Source of the DNA: an uncultured Lachnospiraceae bacterium
GTDB taxonomy: Bacteria > Bacillota > Clostridia > Lachnospirales > Lachnospiraceae
Assembly: GCA_947384285.1 (NCBI GenBank)
Contig: CANDGI010000033.1
Location: forward strand, 1 to 36,140
Direction of reading: 5' to 3'
DNA length: 36,140 bases
The notes under the pieces are model-generated. The model did not search any database. It saw only the letters and a list, made by a program, of their open reading frames with translations, and was not told where the DNA came from. A program made the position numbers and the translations under genes. This document shows, in pieces, positions 2,379 through 31,301 of this stretch. Each line of letters starts with the position of its first letter. Within the stretch, counting starts at the first letter, position 1.

Positions 2379-3425
2379 TTAGCAAATAATTCCTGTTATT
2401 TTAGGTGCTTCTTTCCGGTTCAAATTTTCTGTCTTTATCTTTTTATCCATCTCATTGACATACAAAATAATTGGAGCATGTGCATTTTCTGTCTGGGAGA
2501 TGACAACAGCGTTTTTTCCGTTTTCTGTTTTCACATATGTGCCTGCCGGATAAATCCCCACTTTCTTTTCCAATATTTTTTCCATGCGGTTTTCAAACTT
2601 TTCTTTATCTGAAATCACATTGAATGCTTGAAAAATCGTTTTTTTCGGACTCTCCATACCTGAAACTGCACAATCAAAGGCGTCACAGATTTGTATCATG
2701 TGGCATTCTTTCTGGGTATTTCTCTGTTTTAAAGGATAACCGCTTCCATCCATCCTTTCATGGTGGGAAAGCACCATCAATTTTGAAATTTCCGGCACCC
2801 ATTTTTCCCTCTCCAAAGCGGTATATCCCAAAATGGTATGGTTTTTCAATTCATACTCTTCCAGGGAAGTCAATTTCTTATAAGAAAAGTTACGATAATC
2901 CATGTCGATGTATCGATATCCCAGGTCATGGAGCAGACAGCCTAAAACAGCATGCTCCATCCTTTTTCTGGAAAAGCCATATTCTTTTCCCAGCATCATC
3001 ACCAGTATTGTGATAAAAATTGTATGCTCATACATATCAGAGCTTCGGTTTCTAAAATCCAATGCCCTGTTTTCATCTGTTTTTTCAAATACAGTTACTA
3101 ATTCTTTTACAAGGCTCTCCAATTTTCTCAAGCCGTTTTTTTCATGATAAATATGATGAGACAATATCTCTTTTAAATCATTCTCGAATTTCAGGAATAC
3201 ATTCTCCTCAAAATAGAAGTTTGCCCTTTCATATTTTTCAAAGGGATCCTCAATAAAAATTTTCTGGACATTTAAGGCAGTCAATGACTCTTTATAGCTT
3301 ACTTTTAAAACTGTTCCTATTTCCAGAACAATACTTCCATTTTCCAAACATACTGGCTTTGCCAGAATTTCATTTCCCTTTAATTCAGATACCAGATATT
3401 CTCTCATATTATTGTACCTCTGCAT
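2379..3425 (-). CDS. HD-GYP domain phosphohydrolase
   Basis: HD-GYP proteins are metal-dependent phosphohydrolases, many of which degrade cyclic-di-GMP. The first ~120 residues form an unassigned N-terminal region. The catalytic domain follows, with H134 in a helix, LLHDLGY holding H166-D167, H196, the family motif HHERMDGSGYP at 221-231, and D248 in ICDAFDC. All expected metal-binding positions appear present. No GGDEF domain or membrane segment is seen. I chose the ATG at 3425 (348 residues) because the frame's earlier start at 3515 lies inside the upstream gene; AAAGGGAACGG precedes the chosen start. The earlier start would add 30 residues and overlap the DUF4446 gene by 44 bases. It is the last gene of the parA-parB-DUF4446 run. 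The true substrate is not shown by the sequence. Confidence 0.85.
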   Translation of the reverse strand: MQRYNNMREYLVSELKGNEILAKPVCLENGSIVLEIGTVLKVSYKESLTALNVQKIFIEDPFEKYERANFYFEENVFLKFENDLKEILSHHIYHEKNGLRKLESLVKELVTVFEKTDENRALDFRNRSSDMYEHTIFITILVMMLGKEYGFSRKRMEHAVLGCLLHDLGYRYIDMDYRNFSYKKLTSLEEYELKNHTILGYTALEREKWVPEISKLMVLSHHERMDGSGYPLKQRNTQKECHMIQICDAFDCAVSGMESPKKTIFQAFNVISDKEKFENRMEKILEKKVGIYPAGTYVKTENGKNAVVISQTENAHAPIILYVNEMDKKIKTENLNRKEAPKITGIIC

Positions 3426-3471
3426 TTCCGTTCCCTTTAGGAACAATGACTCGAATTGAGGAATAGCTTCC

Positions 3472-4005
3472 TTAATCTTCCGTCGGTTTCGTTGACTTCT
3501 TAACACCCATTGCAATGTCTAATGCTTCTTTTTCCTCATCCGCAAGTACAATAATGGAATTACCACTTAAAATCTCTTTGATATAAGTATAACATCCCTC
3601 TCTGCTATGCATCGCATTGATGATAAATCCATCATTTTTTTCATCCAGCAATGCCAAAGAGAAACTTAATTTTCCACCCATTTCGTGAAAAGCATCATAT
3701 TTTACCATTCCAACTTTCTGAAACGTATATTTTAAACTGTCAAAAATTTTTTGAATATTCTCCCTGTTTTCAGCTTCAAAAACCAGGAGCTCATCCACCT
3801 GTTGAATACGCTTAATCAAGGTGTCTTCCAATGATTCAGCATTTTTTCCCATCATAAATGCTTCATATTTCTTTTTAATCTTTCCCGTTTTTACCACATT
3901 TACAATCAGCAAAATAAACAATATAAACATGATAAACGCCATAATGGTAAAGGTCAGTAAAAAATCATCTACTGTAAAATATAACCCTATTATGTCTGAC
4001 TTCAT
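3472..4005 (-). CDS. DUF4446 family membrane-anchored protein
   Basis: A 177-residue protein with one N-terminal membrane segment (about residues 15-38, rich in I, F and L), then a coiled-coil-like charged region (KKKYEAFM...RIQQVDELL) and a small cytoplasmic domain. I recognise it as DUF4446, often found directly after parB in Clostridia; its function is unknown. I chose the ATG at 4005 because GGAGG lies five bases before it; an ATG at 4017 would add four residues. It begins 57 bases after the parB stop and probably belongs to the parAB transcript. The recurrent placement suggests a link to origin or membrane organisation, but that is inference. Confidence 0.75.
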   Translation of the reverse strand: MKSDIIGLYFTVDDFLLTFTIMAFIMFILFILLIVNVVKTGKIKKKYEAFMMGKNAESLEDTLIKRIQQVDELLVFEAENRENIQKIFDSLKYTFQKVGMVKYDAFHEMGGKLSFSLALLDEKNDGFIINAMHSREGCYTYIKEILSGNSIIVLADEEKEALDIAMGVKKSTKPTED

Positions 4006-4062
4006 GATTTCCTCCATCTTCTTTTTTTATAACGGAACATATGTTTTAACAAAACTCATATT

Positions 4063-4965
4063 CTAATGAATAGACTGAAATAAATCCATAATCCGTTCTA
4101 ATTCATTGTTAGAATAATATTCAATTTCAATCTTTCCCTTCTCATTTCCTTTATAATGAATTGCAACCTTTGTACCCATAATAGCTTTTAATTTTTGTTC
4201 CATATCTTCATAAAATATGGACATATGATTATCTTCCTGCTGCTTTTTTTGTGGTTCCGCTTTTTGATTTTGAATTTTCTTTACAAGTTTTTCCGTCTCT
4301 CTTACACTTAATTTTTCATCGAAAATCTGCTGCGCTACGTTATATTGCTTTTCATTATCCGCTATTGCCAATAATGCCCGGGCATGTCCAGTAGAAATCA
4401 AATCATCTATTACCATCTGCTGTACTCTCTCGTCCAGCTTCAAAAGCCGCATTGAATTCGTAACTGCTGTTCTGGACTTAGATACACGCTCTGCTACCTC
4501 ATCCTGCTTTAAATGAAACTCATTCAATAAACGTTTAAAAGCGAGAGCCTCCTCTATGGGATTCAAATTTTCCCTCTGAATATTTTCAATAAGAGAAATT
4601 TCTACAATTTGCTGCTCGTTCAGTTCCTTTATGATAACAGGAATTTCTTTCAATCCTGCCATCTTTGCAGCTCTCCATCTTCTCTCTCCTGCAATAATTT
4701 CAAAATAATCTTTTTTATCCTGCACCAACAATGGCTGTAAAACTCCGTATTGCTTTAATGACTCTGACAATTCCAGTAAAGAATCTTCATCAAAATTTTT
4801 TCTTGGCTGTTCTCTGTTGGGTTCTACTTTCGTGATTTTTACAAAGGTTACATCCTTATCTGGCTCCGGCATTCTTACCGCTTCTGCAGTTTCCGGAATT
4901 CCTACCTTATTTGCAATAAGGCTGTCCAGACCTTTCCCTAATCCACCTTTTTTTGCTGATGCCAT
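4063..4965 (-). CDS. parB: Chromosome partitioning protein ParB (Spo0J)
   Basis: ParB binds parS, spreads as a CTP-dependent clamp and loads condensin at the origin. The 300-residue protein opens with the ParA-contacting tail AKKGGLGKGLDSLI. The ParB/CTPase domain contains NREQPRKNF and the GERRWRAA motif near residues 92-99. The helix-turn-helix DNA-binding region includes LKQDEVAERVSKSRTAVTN, and a C-terminal dimerisation region ends the protein. Its start is one base after the parA stop, so the two are translationally coupled. Two perfect parS sites lie about 1 kb upstream, on the far side of parA. Confidence 0.97.
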   Translation of the reverse strand: MASAKKGGLGKGLDSLIANKVGIPETAEAVRMPEPDKDVTFVKITKVEPNREQPRKNFDEDSLLELSESLKQYGVLQPLLVQDKKDYFEIIAGERRWRAAKMAGLKEIPVIIKELNEQQIVEISLIENIQRENLNPIEEALAFKRLLNEFHLKQDEVAERVSKSRTAVTNSMRLLKLDERVQQMVIDDLISTGHARALLAIADNEKQYNVAQQIFDEKLSVRETEKLVKKIQNQKAEPQKKQQEDNHMSIFYEDMEQKLKAIMGTKVAIHYKGNEKGKIEIEYYSNNELERIMDLFQSIH

Positions 4966-4966
4966 T

Positions 4967-5734
4967 CTATTTTTCCTCTCTTTCTATCACTTCGTTTGCT
5001 AGTAAACGATAGCTTTCTGCACCGGCAGACTTTGCATCATATAAATTAATTGGCAATCCATGGCTGGGAGCTTCTGCTAAACGAATATTTCGTGGAATAA
5101 TTGTCTTATAAATATTCGTATTTAAGTTGTTCTTTACATCCTCTACAACCTGCAAAGATAGATTTGTCCTTGCATCATACATTGTAAATACTACCCCTTC
5201 CATCTGAAGGTTTGGATTTAATCTTGTCTGTACCAAATTGATTGTATGAATCAACTGGCTCAGTCCCTCTAATGCGTAATACTCACATTGAATTGGTACA
5301 AGAATTGTATCTGCAGTTGTCATTGCATTGATGGTAAGCATATTTAGGGAAGGAGGGCAATCAATAATTATAAATTCGAAATCTTCCTTAATATAATCCA
5401 CTTCATTTTTTAATATGTATTCCTTGTCATCCATATCAAGTAATTCGATTTCTGCTCCCGCAAGATTTACATTCGATGGTATTAATAAAAGATTGTCAAT
5501 TTCTGTTTGAACCATGCTTTCCCGGATTGTACATTCCCCAAGCATTAGTTCATACACTGTTTTTTTTAGCTCTGTTTTTTCCAATCCAAATCCGCTGGTT
5601 GTATTTCCCTGTGGGTCCATATCAATGGTTAATACTTTTTTCCCCTTTTCTACAAGACAAGCCGATAAATTAATTGCCGTAGTAGTTTTTCCTACTCCGC
5701 CTTTTTGATTGGCTATTGCTATGATTCTTCCCAT
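4967..5734 (-). CDS. parA: Chromosome partitioning ATPase ParA (Soj)
   Basis: A 255-residue ParA/MinD-type ATPase that works with ParB in origin segregation and, in Bacillus, regulates DnaA. The deviant Walker A motif KGGVGKTT is at residues 11-18. The Walker A' region is TIDMDPQGN, Walker B is FIIIDCPPSL, and the C-terminal region holds IPRNIRLAEAPSHG. The frame stays open upstream, but I chose the ATG at 5734 because family members begin MGRIIAIANQKGG there and AGGAAAGGATAAG precedes it. The open upstream stretch is the 5' leader of the transcript. Confidence 0.97.
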   Translation of the reverse strand: MGRIIAIANQKGGVGKTTTAINLSACLVEKGKKVLTIDMDPQGNTTSGFGLEKTELKKTVYELMLGECTIRESMVQTEIDNLLLIPSNVNLAGAEIELLDMDDKEYILKNEVDYIKEDFEFIIIDCPPSLNMLTINAMTTADTILVPIQCEYYALEGLSQLIHTINLVQTRLNPNLQMEGVVFTMYDARTNLSLQVVEDVKNNLNTNIYKTIIPRNIRLAEAPSHGLPINLYDAKSAGAESYRLLANEVIEREEK

Positions 5735-5866
5735 AATCTTATCCTTTCCTGCTATGTTATACCCGTGGGCAAAATAATTACTATAAAAACCTTCGGTTTC
5801 CGCAATAAGGATGGCCATGCGGCTCATTAGATAAATAGTAATAAGTATTCTCTGGGGTATAAATTC

Positions 5867-5875
5867 ATTATAGCA
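5867..5875 (-). promoter_or_regulatory. Extended -10 promoter of the parAB transcript
   Basis: On the minus strand TGCTATAAT is a perfect extended -10 element. A -35 at standard distance is weak (TGGTAA); a TTGACT lies 24 bp upstream, too far for normal spacing. Transcription from here would give a leader of about 125 bases before parA, and parS site 1 lies about 40 bp upstream. Confidence 0.5.
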
Positions 5876-5915
5876 TCTTTTTCTTCTTATTACCATAGTC
5901 AATTCTATCTAAAAA

Positions 5916-5931
5916 TGTTTCACGTGAAACA
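5916..5931. promoter_or_regulatory. parS: parS site 1
   Basis: TGTTTCACGTGAAACA is an exact match to the Bacillus-type parS consensus bound by ParB. Flanking A and T runs extend the dyad to 26 bp (5911-5936). It lies just upstream of parA, 54 bp centre-to-centre from site 2. Confidence 0.95.
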
Positions 5932-5943
5932 TTTTTTTGTATA

Positions 5944-6011
5944 AAAATATTGCATAAAGAGGAGGAAGATGTTTCACGTGAAACATCTTCCTCCTCTTTA
6001 TGCAATATTTT
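5944..6011. repeat. parS: 68-bp perfect palindrome centred on parS site 2
   Basis: Arms 5944-5977 and 5978-6011 are exact reverse complements over 34 bp with no spacer. The centre (5970-5985) is the consensus parS TGTTTCACGTGAAACA; outside it the arms carry the purine/pyrimidine stretch AAAGAGGAGGAAGA and its complement. The right arm overlaps the stop codon of the response-regulator gene (6010-6012). On the minus strand it can form a very stable hairpin right after that gene, so it may also stop transcription between the response regulator and parA. Confidence 0.95.
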
Positions 6012-6654
6012 AAAATACGTTTATCAATTTATTTCTGATTGAAAATACTGCAGCCTGCGTTCTATCAGTTACATCTATCTTTTTAAATATACTGGAAATG
6101 TGGTTCTTTACGGTACGTTCACTGATGTCTAATTTTTTACCAATTTCCTTATTGTATAACCCTACCGATAATAATTTTAACACTTCTAATTCCCGTCTCG
6201 TCAATAAACTTATTTTTTCCTTTTCTATATCCCTTTCAACCATTTTTGAATTTAAAAGAGGTATCATACTTGGCTGTATATATGTTTCCCCTTCAATCAC
6301 ATGAAAGATCGCCTTCTTTAATTCAGAAGAATTAGATTCTTTTAATAAATAACCATCAATTCCAATTTCAACTGCTTTCAGCAAAAATTCAATCTCATTG
6401 TGTACAGTTAAAATAATAACTTTTACATCTACATTATTTTGTTTTAATCTCTCTAAGACCTCCAATCCATTCATATTCGGCATATTGATATCTAACAATA
6501 ATACCTGGGGAAGAACCTTTTCCAAAAGAACTAAACATTCTACTCCATCACAGGCTTCTCCAATTACTTCCACGTCTCCATCCAGTTCCAGCAATTGTTT
6601 CAAACCTTCTCTTACCATAGAATGATCATCTACAATTATAACTTTCGCTGACAT
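6010..6654 (-). CDS. NarL/FixJ-family response regulator (DegU-like)
   Basis: A 214-residue two-component regulator. The receiver domain (about 1-120) has acidic residues D9-D10 (IIVDDH), phospho-acceptor D55 in LLLDINMPN, the Thr of ILTVHN and the Lys of YLLKES. The C-terminal LuxR-type helix-turn-helix (about 147-207) includes LTRRELEVLKLL and ISERTVKNHISSIFKK. It is preceded by AAAGGAGGATGA, which overlaps the end of the kinase gene three bases upstream, so the two form an operon. Its stop lies in the parS palindrome. It would dimerise and control promoters when phosphorylated; its targets are unknown, though the divergent hydrolase gene is a candidate. Confidence 0.9.
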   Translation of the reverse strand: MSAKVIIVDDHSMVREGLKQLLELDGDVEVIGEACDGVECLVLLEKVLPQVLLLDINMPNMNGLEVLERLKQNNVDVKVIILTVHNEIEFLLKAVEIGIDGYLLKESNSSELKKAIFHVIEGETYIQPSMIPLLNSKMVERDIEKEKISLLTRRELEVLKLLSVGLYNKEIGKKLDISERTVKNHISSIFKKIDVTDRTQAAVFSIRNKLINVF

Positions 6655-6657
6655 TTC

Positions 6658-7680
6658 TCATCCTCCTTTATCAATTGGTATCACTACATCAATTTTTGTC
6701 CCCTTTCCTGGCTCAGAATCGATATCTAATCTCCCAGAGAAAAGAAATGCATGCTCCTGCATCATAACTATTCCGAATCCTGAACCATCCTTTCTTTTTA
6801 AATTTTGAATATCATTTATAGCGAACCCAACTCCATCATCTTCAATCCTTATTTCAACATTTTCCTCTGTATACTTTACACTCACATATACGTGCTTTGC
6901 TTTCGCATATTTCAAAATATTACTGCATGCCTCTTGCACAATGTGTAAAATATGTAAGGATATAATAGAAGGAATATTTCTGGATTCACCCAATGTTTCA
7001 TAAGAAACATTCAAAATTTCACTTTTGCGTAACTTTAAAATTTCTTTTTCTATCATACAATCCAAGTTTATGCCATCCAAAGAAAAAGGAAATAAATCAT
7101 TAATAATATTTCTCATATCTTGAATAATATCCCGGATCTGTTTGGAAATAGCATGAAGCTCCAAACGGCAGCGAACTGGATCTACATCTATTAATTTTAT
7201 ACAGATATCAACTTTATGAATCATATTTGTGAGATTCTGGATTGTTAAATCGTGCATGTTCTTGGCAATACGACAACGTTCCATTTCCTGTAATTCTAAT
7301 ATTTTGCGTTGGATTATTTCACTTTTTTCTTTTAAATTTTCTTTTTCGATGGAAGACTTTTCATTCTCTCGTGCAGCTTTAAGTACACTTTCTAATTCAA
7401 TAAGATCAATATTCAGCTTTGCTATTTTTATCTCTAATTCATTTATTTCTAATTCAATTTCATTCTGCTCTTCCAGCAAAGACTCTATTTTCAAATGACT
7501 TTCCTGGTCAATATCCCGAGGAGAAAAAGATTCAAAATTTTCATCCAGGGAACTCTCCAATGCCTGTATAAACTTATTATTATCATTTTTTAAAATTTCT
7601 TTTTTGCGGCATTCTCTCTCTAAATTTAACTTTTCCTCATACATCTGCTGATGCAGATTTTCCAAATAATTAACAATCAT
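6658..7680 (-). CDS. Cytoplasmic sensor histidine kinase (DegS-like)
   Basis: A 340-residue kinase with no membrane segment or signal peptide. Residues 1-130 are highly charged and predicted to form a long coiled coil, as in DegS. The HisKA_3 phospho-acceptor motif is ERCRIAKNMHDLTIQNL with H143. The ATPase domain carries an N box (IVQEACSNILKYAKA), a G1 box (EDDGVGF) and a G2 box (GSGFGIVMMQEHA). Its stop is three bases before the response-regulator start. The signal is probably cytoplasmic, since no sensory membrane domain is seen. The start follows AAAAGGTAATGTT. Confidence 0.88.
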   Translation of the reverse strand: MIVNYLENLHQQMYEEKLNLERECRKKEILKNDNNKFIQALESSLDENFESFSPRDIDQESHLKIESLLEEQNEIELEINELEIKIAKLNIDLIELESVLKAARENEKSSIEKENLKEKSEIIQRKILELQEMERCRIAKNMHDLTIQNLTNMIHKVDICIKLIDVDPVRCRLELHAISKQIRDIIQDMRNIINDLFPFSLDGINLDCMIEKEILKLRKSEILNVSYETLGESRNIPSIISLHILHIVQEACSNILKYAKAKHVYVSVKYTEENVEIRIEDDGVGFAINDIQNLKRKDGSGFGIVMMQEHAFLFSGRLDIDSEPGKGTKIDVVIPIDKGG

Positions 7681-7710
7681 AACATTACCTTTTAGAACAT
7701 ATGTTTTACT

Positions 7711-7735
7711 CCATTAATCTATCATGAATTAATGG
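7711..7735. repeat. Inverted repeat in the kinase-hydrolase intergenic region
   Basis: CCATTAAT (7711-7718) and ATTAATGG (7728-7735) are exact 8-bp arms separated by 9 bp, in the divergent control region upstream of the kinase gene. The size and position suit an operator for a dimeric regulator, but no binding protein is identified. Confidence 0.4.
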
Positions 7736-7814
7736 TAATTACTTTTATTTTATAATAAAATTTAAAATCTGAAAAGATATATTTTGAATTTTTTATTTTT
7801 AAAATATATTTTGT

Positions 7815-7843
7815 TTGTATATCCCGACTATTTCGTCTATAAT
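7815..7843 (+). promoter_or_regulatory. Sigma-A promoter of the hydrolase gene
   Basis: TTGTAT (7815-7820) and a perfect TATAAT (7838-7843) are 17 bp apart, 37 bases before the chosen start and upstream of GAAGGGAGA. Confidence 0.7.
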
Positions 7844-7879
7844 AGTAATAGAAAAAGCAAGAAGGGAGATGCCACCGTC

Positions 7880-8836
7880 ATGAAAAAACAAATCCGTAAT
7901 GTTTTACTTTTAAGTACTTTCACAACCATTGGCATTTACGGTATTAATAAGGCCATCCATATTTCATCTACATTAAAAAATGCATTAAAGACAGATAAAG
8001 GAAATTTTTTTAACTGGAGATATGGAAATATCTTTTACACCAAACAAGGAAAAGGAAGCCCGCTGCTTCTGATTCATGATTTGAATCCCGCCGCCTCCTC
8101 CTATGAGTGGGATAAAATTTCAAAACAGCTTGCAAAACACCATACTGTTTACAGCTTGGATTTATTGGGATGCGGCAGAAGTGATAAACCAAACATGACT
8201 TACAGCAATTATCTTTTTGTCCAATTGATTACTGACTTTACGAAAAATGTAATTGGGGCGAAGCCTGATCTGATTGCTACCGGTGACTCTGCTTCCTTTG
8301 CTCTCATGACATGCAATATGGAACCAGAACACTTCAATAAAATTATGATTATCAGCCCTGTTTCCTTGGAGAGCCTGGCAAAAACACCTAACAAGAGGAA
8401 AAATACATTAAAATTTTTCATAGACCTGCCTGTTTTTGGTACTTTAATTTATAATCTGGTATTTACAGAAAAAAATATAAGCCGTGCATTTTCTAAAAAG
8501 TATTTTTACAAAAACCATATGGTTTCAAGTAAAATCATCAGTACTTATTATGAGGCAGCACATACAGAGAACAGCCATGGAAAATATTTGCTTTCAAGTA
8601 TAAATGCAAATTATGCTAACATTAACATTATCCATGCGTTGAAAAAAATCAATAACAGCATTTACTTAATTGGAAGCAAGGAAGACACTGAGAGCAAGCA
8701 GATTATTGATTCTTACCTTTCCTACAATCCTTCCATTGAGGTTTCCTATCTTGAAGGCTCAGGATATCTTCCCCAGCTGGAAGTACCTGAAAAGCTTCTG
8801 GATATTTTAAACCTATACTTAGACCCTATAAAATAA
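7880..8836 (+). CDS. Alpha/beta-hydrolase fold protein, probable membrane anchor
   Basis: A 318-residue protein. The N-terminus (MKKQIRNVLL...IGIYGI, about residues 5-24) is hydrophobic and may be an uncleaved anchor. The fold begins around residue 50, with the oxyanion region LLLIHDLNP (63-70), LDLLGCGRSDKP (93-104), a nucleophile elbow GDSAS with S137, and acid D269 in SKEDTE. The position normally held by the catalytic His (GHxPHxE) reads GYLPQLE here, with Tyr at 296. I chose the ATG at 7880, preceded by GAAGGGAGA; the frame extends upstream but includes the promoter. It is divergent from the two-component operon and runs against replication. Substrate unknown. Confidence 0.8.
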   Translation: MKKQIRNVLLLSTFTTIGIYGINKAIHISSTLKNALKTDKGNFFNWRYGNIFYTKQGKGSPLLLIHDLNPAASSYEWDKISKQLAKHHTVYSLDLLGCGRSDKPNMTYSNYLFVQLITDFTKNVIGAKPDLIATGDSASFALMTCNMEPEHFNKIMIISPVSLESLAKTPNKRKNTLKFFIDLPVFGTLIYNLVFTEKNISRAFSKKYFYKNHMVSSKIISTYYEAAHTENSHGKYLLSSINANYANINIIHALKKINNSIYLIGSKEDTESKQIIDSYLSYNPSIEVSYLEGSGYLPQLEVPEKLLDILNLYLDPIK

Positions 8837-8855
8837 ATATGTTCCAATAAACAAA

Positions 8856-8952
8856 AATGCAGGATTTTCCTTCCGCTGCACAAACGCTTCGCGGGCATTC
8901 TTAGTTCTCCAAAACTTTACCCGGCTTGTGTGCGAAAGGCCAATCCTGCATT
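8856..8952 (-). terminator. Large imperfect hairpin between convergent genes; likely terminator of the rsmG operon
   Basis: Arms aatgcaggatt (8856-8866) and aatcctgcatt (8942-8952) are exact 11-bp complements. Inside them further imperfect pairing is visible (for example TTCCTTCCGC and TGCACAAAC against GCGAAAGG and GCTTGTGTG). On the minus strand the hairpin is followed by TTTTTG, which supports termination after rsmG. The length (~97 bp) and tidy ends also resemble a palindromic interspersed repeat. Confidence 0.55.
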
Positions 8953-9003
8953 GACCCTATCCCTAAACATAAAAAATTTTCTATTTTTATATGATACAGC
9001 TAT

Positions 9004-16120: not shown

Positions 16121-16582
16121 ATTGTTGATAAAACTTTTCTAAAAATTTTTTTGAATCTTATTTTCAACAATATGCACATTGCATATTATAATAGGGAAGA
16201 AACAAATTTTATCCACAAGTTATCCACATTTTCCACATTTGAAAAAGTTATCCATATTTTGTGGATAACTTGTGGAAAACTTTTTGAAATCTTGTGAATA
16301 CATTTTGTTTTCCACTGAACTTTGCCGAAAAATGAAGATTTTTTCCGTGTAGATATGTTTACAGGCCTTATGTAGATAAATATTTATTTTCTATATTTCA
16401 ACATAAACTTAACATATTGTCCACAATATAACCTTAAAGCGTAAAAAAGACCGAAAATTGTGAAATAAAGGCTTTATTCCTCCTATATTATCCCCTGTAC
16501 CTGTATAAAATTTTAATTGATTATTTGGGCGATTTGCGTTATTATAGAGTATGGAAGACTATGAATTAAGAAAACAGGAGTT
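16121..16582. other. oriC: oriC, upstream part: DnaA-box cluster between rpmH and dnaA
   Basis: This stretch without a gene is very AT-rich and holds the main DnaA-box cluster. TTATCCACA occurs at 16209-16217 and 16220-16228, the variant TTATCCATA at 16248-16256, the reverse-oriented TGTGGATAA at 16260-16268 and TGTGGAAAA at 16271-16279, and TTGTCCACA at 16417-16425. An inverted repeat ATTGTTGA/TCAACAAT (16121-16128, 16164-16171) lies to the left, and a TATAAT at 16187-16192 may belong to a second dnaA promoter under DnaA control. Divergent transcription on both sides supports an origin here. Confidence 0.9.
16517..16545 (+). promoter_or_regulatory. Sigma-A promoter of dnaA
   Basis: TTGATT (16517-16522) and TATTAT (16540-16545) are 17 bp apart, about 50 bases before the dnaA start. 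Confidence 0.65.
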
Positions 16583-16594
16583 TTGGAGAAGACT

Positions 16595-31122: not shown

Positions 31123-31301
31123 ATGCCGGTATCATTTTATGAGGCAGCCTGGATAAATGACTATTATACGGATTTAATTTTTTCCCAGAAGAGGGAATTA
31201 CAATGAATTTTTATTTAACGAATCAGCCTAAAAAAATCCACTCTGTACAATTCAAACCGATGAAACATTGTGCAGAGTGCAGCCCCTTGTATACTGATGT
31301 T
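31123..31301 (+). other. Two short overlapping frames after telA, doubtful coding
   Basis: A 27-codon frame (MPVSFYEAAWIND..., 31123-31206) has a good ribosome site (AAGGAG, eight bases upstream). A 32-codon frame (31203-31301) starts inside its stop in ATGA fashion. The second covers the terminator hairpin of the opposite gene, which makes coding unlikely. The first could be a real small protein or a truncated gene start; no family is recognised. Confidence 0.2.
31232..31279 (-). terminator. Intrinsic terminator of the XRE gene
   Basis: Arms 31239-31251 and 31267-31279 (CACTCTGTACAAT and ATTGTGCAGAGTG) form a 13-bp stem with one wobble pair and a 15-base loop. On the minus strand a run of seven T residues follows directly (31232-31238 region), the pattern of a Rho-independent terminator. 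It lies about 40 bases past the XRE stop. Confidence 0.75.

Follow-up and report, generated by a model that had tools for sequence, protein, structure and literature searches.

A consensus parS site as the probable tip of an intrinsic terminator hairpin in Lachnospiraceae

Both parS sites and intrinsic terminators are textbook elements. For chromosomal ParABS systems, the parS consensus is given as TGTTNCACGTGAAACA in the accessible part of PMC7022226, and the main text of that article contains no occurrence of "terminator", "hairpin" or "cruciform". The site described here resembles chromosomal parS in its exact 16-bp core and in its origin-proximal position adjoining parAB with a full-length ParB, ParB binding being predicted, whereas its core is set in a much longer covarying stem. 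It also resembles intrinsic terminators, as a hairpin at a gene 3' end with a purine/pyrimidine stem, a T-rich tail that is weak in the window, and no nearby terminator detected by scan. Unlike them, its apex is a fixed protein-binding sequence, and the stem of the window is very long and its T-run interrupted.

The closest precedent for combining parS with a terminator appears to be the DNA-uptake signal sequences of Neisseria and Pasteurellaceae, which form terminator hairpins according to the accessible part of Kingsford et al. 2007 (PMC1852404). As at our locus, a DNA recognition sequence with another job has been co-opted into terminator hairpins. However, as described there, the stem consists of complementary copies of a motif generally present 1,000 times or more, whereas one palindromic centromere site forms the tip here; genomes sampled from the family have 0 to 8 exact copies each, and the source genome, in place of an abundant motif, has two at up to two mismatches. 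On plasmid RA3, the partition operon ends with parS next to a tested Rho-independent terminator that follows orf11; the accessible text gives the two as separate neighbours and states no overlap (PMC7414963), while parS lies inside the hairpin here. Template-switch hairpins offer a further likeness, in that inverted copying lengthens or mends a stem in one step, as we suggest for our outer arm; the accessible part of that article concerns RNA genes, and no terminator or parS case is met in it (PMC8794818). Among the titles and abstracts listed from a literature collection in which subscription journals were thinly covered, no parS inside a terminator came up. We propose, from comparative sequence analysis, that the palindrome is very probably the intrinsic terminator of a histidine-kinase/response-regulator operon, with parS as the hairpin tip.

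A parS-centred palindrome at the end of a response-regulator gene

The window analysed here is a single contig of 36,140 nucleotides from the assembly of an uncultured Lachnospiraceae bacterium (74 contigs, 83% complete). Computed on this window, positions 5944 to 6011 form a 68-bp perfect palindrome with arms of 34 nt each (5944-5977 and 5978-6011), 100% complementary and with 0 nt between them. Its exact centre is a consensus parS, TGTTTCACGTGAAACA, at 5970-5985 (parS2), as the original prediction had placed it. The second exact copy of TGTTTCACGTGAAACA (parS1) lies at 5916-5931, upstream of parA, with flanks of A/T only, and these are the only two copies, at up to two mismatches, in an assembly that is 83% complete. 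Only one other zero-spacer palindrome with arms of at least 9 nt occurs in the window, and its 13-nt arms are those of the other parS. By base composition, 26 complementary pairs in a row outside the core would arise with a probability of ~8e-16, and the minus-strand RNA of 5940-6015 folds at -49.9 kcal/mol (z -15.4).

Read as a hairpin of minus-strand RNA with parS2 at its apex, the palindrome has an inner stem with a 5' RNA side at 5986-5999 (AAAGAGGAGGAAGA on the minus strand) and a 3' RNA side at 5956-5969 (TCTTCCTCCTCTTT on the minus strand); the 12 pairs adjoining the core covary across orthologous sites. On the same strand, the outer stem has its 5' side at 6000-6011, overlapping the response-regulator stop codon and still similar to that of a relative, L130, and its 3' side at 5944-5955, with a putative templated insertion of 8 to 12 nt at ~5948-5955, set in the T-run that L130 and L106 show.

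The neighbouring genes run on the minus strand, all in one direction, in the order histidine kinase, response regulator, palindrome, second parS, parA and parB. The NarL/LuxR-type response regulator (Response_reg, GerE) occupies 6010..6654; since its reading frame ends at 6010 and the right end of the palindrome is 6011, the stop codon at 6010-6012 is cut by the palindrome, and the right arm does end within it, as had been noted. The histidine kinase (6658..7680; HisKA_3, HATPase_c) is separated from the response regulator by a 3-bp gap and presumably belongs to the same operon; the hairpin would end the response-regulator transcript. Next, parA lies at 4967..5734, the homologous range pointing to an ATG start at 5734 (the mechanical ORF starts at 5902), and parB, full-length, at 4063..4965 with ParB_N, HTH_ParB and ParB_C. 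With parAB adjacent and dnaA ~10.6 kb off at 16583, the site is origin-proximal, and the nearest named relatives by ParA are Lachnospiraceae. In a distant-similarity search of plasmid records, window positions 5800-6100 had no match.

The terminator scan of the window gave 7 sites versus 2.1 in shuffled sequence, and the palindrome tops the list on both strands. The tail with which it is accepted on either strand, GCAATATTTT, is weak; the RNA at the foot of the full stem is UUUUUAUA, and the T-run that follows the inner stem is interrupted by ATGCA. Several relatives have clear T-runs. The near-equal T-richness of the two strands in the window comes from the symmetry of the palindrome. The hairpin RNA begins at the stop codon of the response regulator, in what would be a single transcription unit. 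In the accessible part of an Escherichia coli study, a terminator placed a few bp past a gene was almost completely repressed (PMC4824070), so that the abutting stop codon counts against termination in the window itself.

Downstream of the presumed terminator, a candidate -10 element of a parA promoter (TATAAT, 5867..5872, minus strand) was seen by eye; it has no convincing -35 at standard spacing and is absent from the promoter-scan sites. That scan, covering 3000-9000, found 25 sigma-70-like sites versus 27.2 in shuffles and hence gives no signal over background.

Pairing, position and strand bias of parS hairpins in relatives

Response-regulator loci of relatives were counted at 57% identity or more, with the C-terminus covered and 150 bp of downstream sequence present, and several of them repeat one genome. 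An exact parS lies within 150 bp past the stop in 63 of these 72 loci, which reduce to 35 distinct contexts, with stop-to-core distances of 1 to 129 nt. Relatives mostly keep the 16-bp core, and their stem sequences differ yet remain complementary, as in L130 (AAAGAGATGGAAA 5' and TTTCCATCTCTTTTTTT 3' of the core, a context identical to that of L024, Lachnospiraceae bacterium 3-1), L114 (GAGAAAGGAGA and TCTCCTTTTTT), L061 (GAAGCCTTTTGAAA and TTTCAAAAGGTTTTTTT) and L071 (GAAGAATCGTAA and TTACGATTCTTTTT). Eubacterium sp. 14-2 is, like Lachnospiraceae bacterium 3-1, a named relative that shares the arrangement.

The 12 flanking pairs were tested for covariation in a gapless alignment of the 35 distinct orthologous sites, extended or not. 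Standard pairs filled 75.7% of stem cells versus 59.1% in shuffles, double-sided changes affected 104 cells versus 39.7, and the covariation score was 0.542 versus 0.243 shuffled and at most 0.331 with the partner slid. A double-sided change occurs somewhere in the alignment at 11 of the 12 pairs, a count that is unexceptional, since 81 of 500 shuffles reach it. This pattern is that of a conserved RNA hairpin, in which pairing appears to be kept rather than sequence. Compensatory change across relatives, the check set beforehand, was therefore found, and arms varying without compensation, the outcome named as speaking against a shared function, were not.

Among 44 distinct response-regulator loci, 8 lack an exact parS within 190 bp. 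Of the 36 loci with a parS, 22 carry a hairpin parS (stem-extension score at least 7) and the other 14 score 6 or less, two of these still passing the terminator scan. In the 22 hairpin loci, the parS hairpin itself passes the scan in 19 and a separate terminator-like site after the response regulator is found in none, versus 7 of the 22 other loci. One of these seven is a decayed hairpin in L119, where, by eye, a parS-like GGGGAATGTTTCTTATGAAATGTTCCC followed by a T-rich tail stands after the response regulator; L119 seems to keep the terminator while the parS core is lost. In L053, also without an exact parS, a one-mismatch core sits inside a stem with a T-run.

We then considered all exact parS sites of the collected sequences. 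Of 423 raw copies, 71 were near-duplicates, 6 stood close to a sequence end and 2 adjoined N; 344 distinct sites remained without these, and relatedness inflates the counts even so. A stem was taken as extended when the core was flanked by 5 or more additional perfect pairs that included 2 or more G/C. This applied to 49 of the 344, whereas joining each left flank to the right flank of another site gave 1.03 on average and never more than 6 in 1000 trials. Extended stems numbered 9/31 in the own genus, 18/104 at the named loci closest in ParA (mostly titled Lachnospiraceae), 8/70 in other genomes of the family, 9/70 in other families of the order and 1/2 in the source genome. The phylum sample, which wrongly contains one own-family locus (L195), gave a small signal of 4/67 (control mean 0.21, maximum 3). 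ParA similarity guided the choice of the named loci, which are all within 3.5 kb of parA, so these frequencies are not genome-wide.

The 56 sites with a mismatch-tolerant score of at least 8 (hairpin sites) were contrasted with the 256 scoring 4 or less (plain sites); these thresholds were chosen after the first data and differ between tests (8 for the survey, 7 for the terminator scan), and gene ends come from mechanical ORF calling. Hairpin sites lie inside an ORF in 1/56 cases versus 46/256 for plain sites (Fisher 8e-4), between divergent genes in 0/51 versus 44/181 (Fisher 8e-6), and within 60 bp of a gene 3' end in 39/55 versus 68/210 (Fisher 4e-7). The 32 intermediate sites (score 5 to 7), left outside this contrast, include 2 in an ORF, 2/28 between divergent genes and 10/30 no more than 60 bp from a 3' end. 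T-tracts were compared between strands in an earlier set of 280 sites: for hairpins, the best 8-nt stretch where the stem ends held 5.62 T on the gene strand versus 4.41 on the other (n = 37, p 0.0017), whereas plain sites showed no strand difference (3.89 versus 4.19, n = 63, p 0.35).

At six loci (L073, L084, L087, L093, L097 and L099), an exact parS lies ~0.9 to 1.2 kb past the parA start, the position expected for the parB coding sequence. In Bacillus subtilis, parS lies inside spo0J, a situation to which these parS sites downstream of parA in relatives may be likened.

Response regulators are not the only genes to end in such hairpins. A recurrence scan took 20 proteins whose genes end within ~110 bp of a parS hairpin, two of them response regulators included as a check (L061, L071). 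Hairpins were found at the ends of rsmG/gidB (L060, L078, L088), the arginyl-tRNA synthetase gene argS (L141, L148, L188, L191), parB (L004, L149, L226, L230), and genes for a YegS-type lipid kinase (L134, L136), a NERD-domain protein (L251, L252) and a GNAT acetyltransferase (L082); the proteins at L085 and L156 had no Pfam match at 1e-6. Since these genes belong to different families, the fusion of parS and terminator probably arose several times, by what would be independent origins.

These observations bear on the other ways in which such palindromes might arise. Mutation alone could suffice if hairpins formed at the parS palindrome when it is replicated and their arms grew by template switching with no function attached, and template switching is reported to make and mend perfect stems in one event in the accessible part of PMC8794818; the outer arm of the window resembles just such an event. 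Nevertheless, neutral growth predicts extension at intergenic parS whatever the orientation of the genes, whereas hairpins are absent between divergent genes, where plain sites do occur, and are concentrated at 3' ends with a strand-specific T-tract. Gene orientation and T-tract bias led us to reject it as the whole story, and we consider it improbable in that form, while keeping it for the outer arm.

A DNA-level element, in which the arms extrude a cruciform or widen the ParB footprint and so aid ParB loading or SMC recruitment, would suit a palindromic, origin-proximal site with an intact parB close by. However, most parS sites, parS1 included, have no GC-containing stem, and the link to gene 3' ends would be left unexplained. 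The freedom of the stem letters to change argues against an extended sequence-specific footprint, and together with the tie to 3' ends it leads us to reject this reading as very improbable; the cruciform at the origin suggested in the original prediction falls with it, a DNA-level cruciform having no need to track gene 3' ends.

Finally, a mere coincidence of location, with parS tolerating 3' intergenic space and arms due to chance or assembly artefact, has next to no probability: stemless parS is indeed common at 3' ends and parS hairpins coincide with breaks or mis-joins in some assemblies (L069, L102, L223, L224), but the extended stems far exceed the re-pairing control, the palindrome lies inside its contig with normal genes on either side, and relatives carry comparable hairpins, among them L106, L113 and L125, whose genomes consist of one to five contigs.

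In L069 an N gap separates two parS copies with matching stem halves, and contigs end 11 bp (L223) and 24 bp (L224) past parS. In L102, a parS variant forms the centre of a perfect inverted repeat of 1896 nt, which is probably a mis-join; lacking the exact core, L102 stands outside the exact-parS survey count, and it was set aside in two of the other analyses. As some assemblies fail at parS hairpins in these ways, parS counts from draft genomes may be low or doubled.

A site that may serve both DNA and RNA

The reading that we favour, an intrinsic terminator with parS at its tip, can be set out as follows. At the DNA level, ParB would load on the 16-bp core as on any ordinary origin-proximal parS. 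In the minus-strand RNA, the inner purine stem, the parS palindrome and an ACGU loop would fold as a hairpin followed by U-rich RNA, and RNA polymerase would stop just past the response regulator, ahead of the parAB promoter region. Selection would act on the DNA letters of the core and, in the flanks, mainly on complementarity, which would let the stems drift with compensation. The suggestion that the element combines the roles of partition site and of a transcription barrier shielding parAB thus draws support, at the level of sequence comparison, from the covariation, the 3'-end position, the T-tract bias and the lack of a separate terminator.

The benefit of the combination could be plain economy: as the palindromic core is already half a hairpin, an adjoining gene end would gain a terminator by adding a few pairs. 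Shelter of ParB from polymerase need not be the benefit, since ParB assembly on the F plasmid is left undisturbed by active transcription according to the accessible part of PMC6238139. A more ambitious version, which we regard as unlikely, takes the fusion as a recurrent selected architecture with cross talk, linking parAB read-through to the segregation state of the origin; ParB on the core would alter termination of the upstream operon, or the stopped polymerase would mark the point of ParB loading.

If parS does form the tip of a terminator, one short stretch would be constrained twice, in its DNA letters for the centromere and in its RNA pairing for the terminator, with a fixed core and covarying flanks. 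This would explain the odd palindromic flanks of some bacterial centromere sites. The 49 distinct GC-containing stems around one core could represent a natural series for the interaction of ParB with termination. Moreover, a parS of these bacteria would be unsafe to delete or move unless an accompanying terminator had first been checked for.

Extra length of the palindrome and neighbouring sequences

Arms reaching far beyond the 16-bp core, one of the features first remarked on, are real in the window and not general. When distinct zero-spacer palindromes with an exact parS at their centre are ranked by arm length, the window comes first with 34 nt, the next has 27 nt and most have far less; in all the loci compared, the probable mis-join L102 alone has a longer one. 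In 1.09 Mb of relatives' loci, picked for parS or parA, 38 of the 40 distinct zero-spacer palindromes with arms of at least 14 nt centre on an exact parS.

The origin of the additional pairs can be approached through the nearest stems. The L130 stem passes into a clean T-run, TCTCTTTTTTTCTAAACAAAAAAAA, where the window reads CTCTTTATGCAATATTTTTATACAAAAAAA. An alignment gap falls over ATGCAATA, of 8 nt against L130 and 12 nt against L106, and ATGCAATA is an inverted copy of the gene-side TATTGCAT, the gene-side arm still resembling L130. With a candidate of 9, 10 or 11 nt taken out of the spacer, the score rose in 5 of 6 comparisons; in the other (11 nt, L130) it fell slightly. The more distant alignments, with L113 and L108, place their gaps elsewhere, neither supporting nor excluding an insertion. 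The extra length looks like one templated insertion, hairpin-primed template switching being the simplest account, and the accessible part of PMC8794818 reports mutation patterns in RNA genes that match this process. A hairpin that was once shorter would have reached its perfect 68 bp in this species when a copy templated by the gene-side arm entered the T-run. Such an event would explain the perfect outer arms with no function of their own, leaving the inner stem under selection. The retention of so long a palindrome had been ascribed to selection or to recent origin, and the two now divide: recent origin fits the outer arms, with their inverted-copy insertion, and selection fits the inner ones.

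At Rfam gathering scores, the palindrome had no match, and the matches of the window are tRNA and uup RNA only, the latter (RF03060, 62.6 bits) at 31231-31278. A ~46-bp repeat lies at 5778-5823, with the candidate parA promoter on one side and the start of parA on the other. Of the 28 matches that the query 5736-6300 has in its own genome, 25 are to this repeat, which is spaced at ~77 to 78 bp in places and has copies in several relatives of the genus. Upstream of dnaA (16583), inverted repeats TTATCCACA at 16204-16284 were also noted, which we take to be DnaA-box-like and to mark the likely oriC.
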